Of a stretch of 59,404 nt of DNA, positions 10,018-35,021 are shown piece after piece; position 1 is the stretch's first letter, and each line of letters opens with the position of its first letter. The DNA is from a virus. The position numbers and the translations under genes are program-made. The notes beneath the pieces are model-generated. The model was given only the letters and a program-made list of their open reading frames with translations. It had not been told where the DNA came from and made no database searches. Where the stretch lies: positions 1 through 59,404 of the IMG/VR virus record IMGVR_UViG_3300043313_000821, one strand, 5' to 3'.

Positions 10018-10979
10018 CGCCGCGACGTGTGTTCGCGATCGCTACGGATTCGGCGGGGTGTTGGCATTACCGCCTGAACCTGCCGTTGACGCATTTGGAC
10101 CCGACAGAGTTTGAGGTGATTTGGGGTCCGCCGTCCCCGCCGGGTGGTGAACGTCTTCCGGGGGATGTGGTGATCGGGCAAAGGATCGTGGGCTACAACA
10201 CGGCGTGGCAGGAAATGTGTGCGGATCCTGGCCTGCTCGCTGTGTATGACCTGGACGATAATCTGCTCGACCTGGATCCGGCCAACCCCACGTTGTATTC
10301 CATTTTCATGCCGCAGGCAGACGAAACCCGCCGGAACATCGCGCTAGCTGATGTGGTGACGGTGTCAACGGCGGCGTTGGCGGAGTTCATCCGCCCGATC
10401 AACCCGAATGTCGTGATCCTGCCGAACTGTTCATCAGACGAATGGCTAACCCCAGTTACCGGATCGGTCCCTATCACTGTCGGGTGGGCTGGTTCTTTCT
10501 TCCACCACCAGGACTGGCCCGGCATCCCGCAGCAATTGGGGATCTATCAGAGCCGCGAACCGCGCGCTAAGTGGCACATGATCGGCGCGGACTACACAAG
10601 CGGCATGGTGTGGCCGCTGCTGATCGATGGCTGGTCAACGATTCCCGCGTACCTTAGGGCGTTGGATTTCACGATCGGCATCGCACCGTTGAACAGTTCG
10701 TCGTTCAATCGGTACAAATCGCACTGTAAGGTTCTGGAATACGCATCGCGGGGAATCGTGCCGGTAGCGTCACGGAACGCCGAATATCCGGAGTTCATCG
10801 AACACGGTGTTAACGGTCTGCTGGTCGACCGGATCGAGGACTGGCCGGATCACCTGGCAGCGTTGTCCGACGACACGCTCCGCGAAAAGATGGCCGCTGC
10901 AGCGCGGGCGACCGCCGAAACGTTCCACATCCGTAATCACATCCACCGGTGGGCAGCCACATACAGAGGTGAGTTTTAG
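10014..10979 (+). CDS. GT-B-like glycosyltransferase (family 4-like) A
   Basis: A 321-aa glycosyltransferase. The ATG at 10014 overlaps the HNH stop (ATGA) and has GGAGA 8-12 bases upstream. Motifs: N-terminal TDSAGCWHYRLNLP, VYDLDDNLLDLD, VTVSTAALAEFIRP, VGWAGSFFHHQDW and a C-terminal SHCKVLEYASRGIVPVAS with a donor-binding Glu. The same succession appears in the gene at 14966, so the two are paralogues. It probably transfers an activated sugar within the same pathway as gmd and the C-methyltransferase. Confidence 0.82.
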   Translation: MTPRRVFAIATDSAGCWHYRLNLPLTHLDPTEFEVIWGPPSPPGGERLPGDVVIGQRIVGYNTAWQEMCADPGLLAVYDLDDNLLDLDPANPTLYSIFMPQADETRRNIALADVVTVSTAALAEFIRPINPNVVILPNCSSDEWLTPVTGSVPITVGWAGSFFHHQDWPGIPQQLGIYQSREPRAKWHMIGADYTSGMVWPLLIDGWSTIPAYLRALDFTIGIAPLNSSSFNRYKSHCKVLEYASRGIVPVASRNAEYPEFIEHGVNGLLVDRIEDWPDHLAALSDDTLREKMAAAARATAETFHIRNHIHRWAATYRGEF

Positions 10980-34010: not shown

Positions 34011-34265
34011 GTGACCCACCCCGCCACCCGCCTCACCGGCACCCGCGACTACCAGAAACTCCCCCACACCTGTCAATGCGGACAAAGGTGGTCAGGGGAA
34101 GAAACCGCACACTGCCCCACCTGTCACCACACATTCGGCGGAACCACGCCATTCGACTACCACCGTCGAAACGGGCAATGCTCTATTACCCGTACGCTTC
34201 ACATGGAACTAGACACCCGCCGCGCGTTCCCGTGCTGGTCAATGCCCCGACTTGACAACCACTGA
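34011..34265 (+). CDS. FDxHR-type zinc-finger protein
   Basis: An 84-aa protein starting at GTG 34011 with AGGAGA upstream. CQCGQRWSG ... CPTCHHTFGG ... FDYHRRNGQC is a recognised pattern of small phage zinc proteins (the FDxHR finger). Role unknown. A promoter for the tRNA-like region overlaps its end. Confidence 0.72.
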   Translation: MTHPATRLTGTRDYQKLPHTCQCGQRWSGEETAHCPTCHHTFGGTTPFDYHRRNGQCSITRTLHMELDTRRAFPCWSMPRLDNH

Positions 34266-34402: not shown

Positions 34403-34471
34403 TTGCCGGTAGCTCAGGGGTAGAGCAACCCGAACGCGAGGCAATACGCTGGTTCGATTCCAGCCCGGCAA
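34403..34471 (+). tRNA. tRNA-like element 1, anticodon not assignable
   Basis: A perfect 7-bp acceptor stem (TTGCCGG with CCGGCAA), D arm GCTC-AGGGGTA-GAGC and T arm GCTGG-TTCGATT-CCAGC are all canonical. The 21 bases between D and T arms (34427-34447) form no 5-bp anticodon stem and lack a U33 candidate. No CCA is encoded. Total length 69. A tRNA by three arms, but without a usable anticodon arm. Confidence 0.62.
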
Positions 34472-34510
34472 ACGCAATGCCCTTCACTGCAAGTCAGGCA
34501 CAGCACAAAA

Positions 34511-34534
34511 CCCGCAGCGTTCCAGCGTTGCGGG
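34511..34534 (+). repeat. Hairpin preceding tRNA-like element 2
   Basis: CCCGCAGCG and CGTTGCGGG form a 9-bp stem (one G-T pair) with a 6-base loop, directly after a CAGCACAA copy and six bases before element 2. Similar hairpins precede elements 3 and 4. Possibly an RNA processing signal. Confidence 0.5.
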
Positions 34535-34539
34535 CCATG

Positions 34540-34622
34540 GAGTGTGTAGCTCAGGGGTAGAGCACCTGATCGGCCGGCCAGCCATCGATCAGGGGGTCGG
34601 CGGTTCGAATCCGCCCACGTTC
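34540..34622 (+). tRNA. tRNA-like element 2 with enlarged anticodon loop
   Basis: Acceptor GAGTGTG/CACGTTC (with two G-T pairs), D arm GCTC-AGGGGTA-GAGC, T arm GGCGG-TTCGAAT-CCGCC. The anticodon region has an 8-bp stem CCTGATCG/CGATCAGG (34565-34572 and 34586-34593) closing a 13-base loop in place of 5 bp and 7 bases. Without a 7-base loop the anticodon cannot be read. Confidence 0.6.
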
Positions 34623-34717
34623 CCGCAGATCCGGGGTCGGTGCAGACGCGAACAGCCGGAACCTTCCGGTAAGGCGGTTCAGCGGGCCGGATGCAGAAAA
34701 CCCGACACAGCACAAAA

Positions 34718-34744
34718 CGGGGAACCAGGGCAAAGGGTTCCCCG
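34718..34744 (+). repeat. Hairpin preceding tRNA-like element 3
   Basis: CGGGGAACC and GGTTCCCCG form a perfect 9-bp stem with a 9-base loop, again immediately after CAGCACAA and just before element 3. Confidence 0.5.
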
Positions 34745-34748
34745 CCAA

Positions 34749-34865
34749 GGGGTTGTAGCTCAACTGGCAGAGCAACGGACACTGAAACACCACCGGTCCC
34801 CCCCAGGTCAACCGCAACGGTGCGACAGTTCCGGCGATACGGGTGGTTCAAGTCCCCCCAACCCC
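34749..34865 (+). tRNA. tRNA-like element 3 with expanded middle
   Basis: Perfect acceptor GGGGTTG/CAACCCC, D arm GCTC-AACTGGCA-GAGC, T loop TTCAAGT with a 5-bp stem containing one mismatch. The part between D and T arms is 68 bases (about 22 expected). A CTGAAAC string near 34782 resembles a loop with GAA (Phe) anticodon but is not flanked by a proper stem. Possibly a tRNA with inserted sequence. Confidence 0.5.
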
Positions 34866-34931
34866 TCGCAAACGCTGCACCGGACGTTTGATCAACGAAA
34901 CGGACAGCAACACCCGGATTGATCACCGGGT

Positions 34932-35021
34932 GGCCGTGTCGTCTAAAGGTAAGACGCCCTACCACCGCACCGTAAGGGACACCGGTAGGGAAATGCCCGC
35001 ATTCGAAACCGGGTCACGGCA
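34932..35021 (+). tRNA. tRNA-like element 4, degenerate
   Basis: D arm GTCT-AAAGGTA-AGAC and a 6-of-7 acceptor (GGCCGTG/CACGGCA) as in Gln/Glu-type tRNAs. The anticodon region is a 7-bp stem CCCTACC/GGTAGGG closing 20 bases. The T loop TTCGAAA is present, but its stem is only 4 bp with a 10-base loop. A perfect acceptor partner CACGGCC also occurs slightly downstream at 35027-35033. The most degraded of the four. Confidence 0.4.

Follow-up and report, generated by a model that had tools for sequence, protein, structure and literature searches.

The window, by which we mean the whole 59.4-kb IMG/VR record analyzed here, comes from a tailed phage in which genes for the tape measure, terminase, portal, and major capsid proteins are recognized. 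It also carries two WhiB-like genes, which indicate an actinobacterial host, and no DNA match to it was found among cultured phages. An array of four tRNA-like elements is preceded on its 5' side by a gene for a phage zinc-binding protein (34011–34265, PF24071) and followed by small genes of unassigned function. The zinc-binding protein gene, the array, and the small genes are all on the same strand. The array and the hairpins associated with it are as follows.

34403–34471, plus strand: element 1, tRNA body; Rfam tRNA score of 45.3 bits; near-MFE cloverleaf without a stable anticodon arm
34511–34534, plus strand: GC-rich hairpin (CCCGCAGCGTTCCAGCGTTGCGGG), 5 nt upstream of element 2, read from the sequence
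34540–34622, plus strand: element 2, tRNA body; Rfam tRNA score of 51.8 bits; 'tRNA-???' by ARAGORN; the MFE structure is the cloverleaf
34718–34744, plus strand: GC-rich hairpin just upstream of element 3, inverted repeat I13
34749–34865, plus strand: element 3, tRNA body; Rfam tRNA score of 38.4 bits
about 34911–34932, plus strand: GC-rich hairpin just upstream of element 4, read from the sequence
34932–35021, plus strand: element 4, tRNA-like; descriptor match; the cloverleaf is the MFE structure (z = -2.3); no Rfam score
35165–35200, strand not assigned: strong hairpin downstream of the array; a 14-bp stem followed by a T run, terminator-like on the minus strand

The hairpins before elements 2, 3, and 4 are possible processing or attenuation signals. 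The contig contains no ordinary tRNA detectable by ARAGORN or Rfam, and their calls were confined to the odd elements. A protein-coding reading of the array was rejected, as the overlapping ORFs match no PHROG, and so was an integration scar, as no tyrosine or serine integrase was found by Pfam in the contig. A CAGCACAAAA motif that is repeated in two of the spacers is no more frequent genome-wide than expected by chance.

The closest relative of the window phage is the contig L003, which is syntenic and has a terminase of 80% identity. It was the only close relative recovered in searches with the terminase and portal. Both flanks of the array are conserved in L003 and the four elements are missing there, indicating that the array is dispensable.

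Anatomy and computed support of the four elements

Elements 1 and 2 retain 16 of 16 base pairs in the acceptor, D, and T stems. In element 1, the acceptor (TTGCCGG/CCGGCAA) has 7/7 pairs, the D stem 4/4, and the T stem 5/5; the anticodon stem is absent, and 21 unpaired nucleotides (34427–34447) lie between the D and T arms. Element 2 likewise has 7/7 acceptor pairs (two of them G-U), 4/4 D pairs, and 5/5 T pairs. Its substituted arm (34565–34593) consists of CCTGATCG, 13 nt, and CGATCAGG, which together form an 8-bp stem with a 13-nt loop, and is followed by a variable loop, GGGTC. The acceptor of element 2 includes a G3-U70 pair, and its discriminator is C. Element 3 has 7/7 acceptor and 4/4 D pairs, along with 4/5 T pairs (one U-C mismatch), and 68 nt (34774–34841) replace both the anticodon arm and the variable loop. 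Element 4 is the most altered in its body, having 6/7 acceptor pairs (the mismatch is at the end), an intact D stem, and an altered T arm with a 10-nt loop; its substituted arm (34957–34990) is formed by CCCTACC, 20 nt, and GGTAGGG, giving a 7-bp stem with a 20-nt loop. A normal anticodon arm (5-bp stem, 7-nt loop, and U33) is present in none of the four elements (0/4). With the anticodon missing, RNAs of this form cannot read codons. A preliminary description made from the sequence had reported acceptor and D arms in all four elements and a T arm in elements 1–3, and these arms, the positions of the elements, and the lengths of the anticodon regions were all found to be right upon direct rereading.

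Computed scores agreed with this anatomy for most of the array. By cmscan with the Rfam tRNA model (RF00005), elements 1–3 scored 45.3, 51.8, and 38.4 bits (E-values of 3e-8, 5e-10, and 2e-6, respectively, for a 1-kb search), which is above the Rfam cut-off of 29 bits, and the model skipped the anticodon region in each of them. Element 4 was not reported, such that the covariance-model check suggested in the preliminary description identifies elements 1–3 as tRNA and not element 4. ARAGORN called element 2 alone. A structural descriptor blind to the anticodon matched elements 1 and 2 in its strict form, elements 1–3 with a T stem of at least 4/5 pairs, and element 4 when relaxed; 40 dinucleotide shuffles of the window yielded 0, 0, and a mean of 0.25 matches, respectively. 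Thermodynamic folding of each element alone gave the cloverleaf with its substituted arm as the MFE structure for elements 2 and 4, and for element 1 the cloverleaf was within 0.1 kcal/mol of the MFE. Adding one or two 3' bases to element 2 made an alternative fold slightly better than the cloverleaf, and in element 3 the cloverleaf lay 4 kcal/mol above the MFE.

Apart from tRNA, no Rfam family matched the four elements of the array or the odd elements of 16 other loci. Homologues of the four window elements were not found in the collections searched. Patterns matching the bodies of elements 1 and 2 had no match in viral contigs, and the pattern for the element 3 body had a single match, L396, which is an ordinary tRNA. 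The preliminary description had proposed looking for the same altered arms in related phages; the array is absent from L003, and the collections searched yielded no homologues of the window elements. For this reason, conservation is argued below from the class to which the elements belong and not from these four.

Elements of the same class in other phages

When viral contigs were scanned for consensus D and T arms separated by an enlarged gap, at least 120 matches were obtained, and the acceptor was paired in more than 100 of the matches listed. Some of these matches, including the Ile(UAU)-like group described below, look like real decoding tRNAs. Counts for the class are lower bounds, the scans having used consensus arms. 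In a sample obtained with a pattern open to both normal and odd forms, clear enlargement was seen in about 2–3% of roughly 130 tRNAs. Among the matches listed, the T stem was paired at 5/5 positions in 100 of 112 odd elements and the acceptor at 7/7 positions in 95 of 112. A closing stem of at least 4 bp at the anticodon position occurred in 53 of the 112 odd elements listed, as compared with ~10 in shuffled cores, while CCA was encoded in 23 of these 112 as compared with 87 of 153 normal tRNAs. If the class is defined by pairing in the acceptor, D, and T arms together with the lack of a decodable anticodon arm, elements 1–3 of the window belong to it fully and element 4 in a relaxed sense.

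Several recurring families exist within the class, and some phages carry more than one element. Within 3 kb, the phage contig G008 has six odd elements; one of them carries its insert in the D loop instead, and two are weak or below threshold in the genome search. G012 has three odd elements and G011 two. The element with the D-loop insert (L397, 2107–2210) has a nearly normal anticodon arm with a 6-nt loop. G009 (L390), which is distantly related to the window phage by its portal, has two elements identical in acceptor and T-arm sequence and unrelated in their arms. In a family from Clostridia (L040, L284, and L334, comprising genomes and a virus contig), the substituted arm is conserved and its loop pairs with the variable region, with covariation of this pseudoknot (AAGGA:TCCTT, AAGGG:CCCTT, and AAGCA:TGCTT) in three sequences only. 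We did not find a description of this phage element class in the open-access literature, and the class is apparently broad and undescribed.

Other unusual tRNA-like sequences were encountered in the scans. An odd element with the core ACAGGCGGGCCC..AACAGACCTAA is shared by a virus contig (L102) and a bacterial chromosome (L343, Paenibacillus farraposensis), the latter copy presumably being a prophage. A group of Ile(UAU)-like tRNAs in viral and bacterial contigs (L036, L065, L073, L093, L136, L274, L312, L319, and others) has a YTTATAC loop and a long variable arm containing AGATTA or AGATAA; these look like a recurring group of genuine class II tRNAs that decode. On the minus strand of L019 (IMGVR_UViG_3300005546_000004), at ~2460–2200, there are two units, in each of which the 3' half of a tRNA, with a terminal CCA, is followed after 3–4 nt by the matching 5' half. 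The acceptors and anticodon stems of these units are paired, their YrlA score is weak, and a Ro60 gene was not found. They are apparently circularly permuted phage tRNA-like genes or Y-RNA-like RNAs.

Cultured phages carry such elements as well. Streptomyces phage phiC31 has one between gp13 and gp14 (AJ006589, 31424–31510), which is unannotated in the record. A phiC31-type element in phage Lilbooboo (MK450431, 30716–30803) is annotated as tRNA-Gly, and an element in Microbacterium phage Schubert (MK308637, 28379–28463) as tRNA-Pro; in neither is the anticodon arm that of a decoding tRNA. The element of phage phiBT1 has nearly the same body as that of phiC31 and a wholly different arm. These phage genomes (phiC31, phiBT1, and Schubert) are finished, which makes an assembly error, named in the preliminary description as an outcome that would undo its reading, an unlikely cause of the window elements.

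Ten members of the phiC31 family were compared. In these, 98.8% of cells are paired and 11 pairs have two-sided changes, including two in the stem of the substituted arm and two in its inner hairpin; none of 500 shuffles was as high. Compensatory changes occur in the acceptor and T arm as well as in the substituted stem and the inner hairpin. Even L083, in which the acceptor and T-stem sequences are unrelated, has nearly the same internal loop (AAYCCGGRRC/GYGCAC). This sequence comparison supports structural selection on the substituted arm of the Streptomyces phages phiC31 and Vash, with the arm being kept by compensatory changes. The phiC31-type module was not found in the array by covariance model R1, and a likeness to it seen by eye in element 4 and in a GCAAC hairpin of element 3 was rejected by the covariance model.

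Alternative explanations and a possible role

The preliminary description had allowed for tRNAs carrying small insertions, in which case the window elements would be functional tRNAs with small anticodon-loop introns removed by archaeal-type or other splicing. The extra length does sit at the archaeal intron position, and the search pattern that retrieves odd elements also retrieves archaeal intron-bearing tRNAs. A spliced tRNA, however, requires a 7-nt anticodon loop with U33, and removal of a single stretch restores such a loop in none of the four window elements (as determined by script for element 2 and, for elements 1, 3, and 4, by reading the sequence); element 1 is in fact shorter than normal in its anticodon region. 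U33 is present in 122 of 124 normal viral tRNAs, and the test is passed by every one of the 35 full-stem, intron-bearing archaeal tRNAs recovered with the same search pattern. In contrast, among the matches listed, U33 is possible in 17 of 49 odd viral elements with a stem of 4–5 bp, with ~44% expected by chance from two random positions, and 9 of 23 odd viral elements with a perfect stem pass. Since U33 is no more frequent than chance among the odd elements and near-universal in the controls, the class is not explained by small introns, and the suggestion of small insertions is contradicted. RtcB was also not found in the window or its relatives, though a ligase of the host may serve. We consider introns in the window elements extremely improbable.

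Gene decay is a more serious alternative, though we judge it unlikely. The four elements would be remnants of an acquired tRNA array that is being lost, consistent with the absence of the array from the syntenic L003 and with the acceptor mismatch and distorted T arm of element 4, and the lack of homologues that could prove selection leaves room for decay of these four in particular. Against this, elements 1 and 2 have kept every body pair though the anticodon arm is gone, the same pattern is seen in all four window elements, other phages also have arrays in which such elements predominate, and phiC31-type arms covary. That independent decay would hardly strike a single arm in four of four elements had been argued in the preliminary description, and the argument gains from the recurrence of the pattern in many unrelated phages and from the structural selection on the phiC31-family arm. 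It is also conceivable, but quite unlikely, that the elements serve as punctuation for RNA processing, providing tRNA-shaped cleavage sites for RNase P and 3' nucleases in phage transcripts while the arm is free to vary. The elements of phiC31, Vash, and Schubert do lie in tight gaps between codirectional genes, the acceptor-T half needed by RNase P is the most conserved part, and the arm differs between the nearly identical bodies of phiC31 and phiBT1. If the arm were free, however, one would not expect the conserved internal loop and covarying stems that phiC31-type elements have even in L083, and four to six elements in a row exceed what punctuation needs. Lastly, the substituted arms might pair with mRNA, making the elements tRNA-scaffolded antisense RNAs. 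In element 2, the loop and 3' stem (34578–34592) are an exact 15-nt complement of 10620–10634 of the window, which lies in a glycosyltransferase gene, and none of 600 random 34-mers from the genome reached 15-nt complementarity. But the target site is in the middle of the gene and half of the matching sequence is stem, elements 1, 3, and 4 have no excess complementarity, and the elements of phiC31, phiBT1, and Schubert have no complementarity to their own genomes. An antisense payload was thus rejected as a general rule, and we regard it as very unlikely for the array.

The interpretation we favor, and to which we assign about an even chance, is that the array specifies four tRNA-bodied, non-decoding RNAs that undergo tRNA-like maturation and most likely act as mimics or decoys for host tRNA-binding proteins. 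Retention of the acceptor, D, and T arms and of the elbow residues would permit the transcripts to be matured and stabilized by host tRNA enzymes, through RNase P, 3' processing, and possibly CCA addition. The acceptor/T half and the elbow are what RNase P and CCA-adding enzymes recognize, and because these are intact, tRNA-like maturation and stability are expected. With the anticodon arm exchanged for other, mostly structured sequence, the RNAs could occupy host proteins that recognize the tRNA body—tRNA-targeting toxins, defense nucleases, or other tRNA-binding factors—and would present no normal anticodon loop for cleavage. The substituted arm may itself be a functional module in some families. 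Of the readings in the preliminary description, both decoys for tRNA-cleaving defenses and tRNA-like regulators may thus still apply. The class and its maintenance are supported by the evidence above; the decoy role we infer from two things, the anatomy of the elements and the published tRNA-targeting defenses. Phage tRNAs matter against defenses that cleave tRNA (PMC10264068, PMC13096335).

Odd tRNAs occur across many phages, including phiC31, and the tRNA body thus appears to have been turned into a carrier for RNAs with no part in translation. A broader form of this idea, which we put forward tentatively and hold to be somewhat doubtful, is that phages widely encode tRNA-scaffolded regulatory RNAs, each with a stable, processed body and an exchangeable arm, that are diversified in arrays and antagonize different host tRNA-binding defense or translation factors. 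The tRNA genes of phages are generally regarded as aids to decoding or as substitutes for tRNAs that host defenses have cut. With the body kept and the anticodon lost, neither of these jobs is possible, and hence some annotated phage tRNAs, such as the tRNA-Gly of Lilbooboo and the tRNA-Pro of Schubert, are something else. As phiC31 is genetically tractable and carries one such element, function is directly testable.

Comparison with known tRNA-like RNAs

Bacterial Y RNA (YrlA) has a tRNA-like body with another stem in place of the anticodon arm, as is also evident in the Rfam alignment RF02553. YrlA is permuted, however, with its T arm before its D arm, and acts with Ro60, whereas the window elements are in the normal order; no YrlA match was found in the window, and no partner gene with a TROVE domain (Ro60) was found. 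Like tmRNA, the elements combine the acceptor half of a tRNA with other sequence in the anticodon region, and element 2 shares with tmRNA the G3-U70 pair. However, tmRNA has no D stem and contains pseudoknots and a reading frame; the elements have full D stems and no such insert, and neither ARAGORN nor Rfam detected a tmRNA in the window. The TMERs of gammaherpesvirus MHV68 are a viral cluster of tRNA-like, non-decoding carrier RNAs. They belong to an animal virus, and their miRNA hairpins are located 3' of the tRNA body and not in the anticodon arm. These TMERs are cited in PMC6409571.

Among phage RNAs, the canonical tRNA arrays include those of mycobacteriophages, in which mutations in the anticodon loop let tRNAs escape anticodon nucleases (van den Berg 2023, PMC10264068). 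These are similar to the window array in being clustered phage tRNA genes with changes concentrated in the anticodon arm, but they keep a 7-nt loop and decode, whereas the window elements have no anticodon. The element of phiC31, phiBT1, and Vash shares with the window elements intact acceptor, D, and T arms, a substituted anticodon arm, and a location in the phage early region. It differs in occurring as a single copy, as compared with four in the window, and in that the phiC31 arm is a defined module (the AAYCCGGRRC/GYGCAC internal loop plus a hairpin) to which the window elements have no match. Taken as a whole, the class would correspond in nature to the 'tRNA scaffold' with which inserted RNAs are stabilized in the laboratory.
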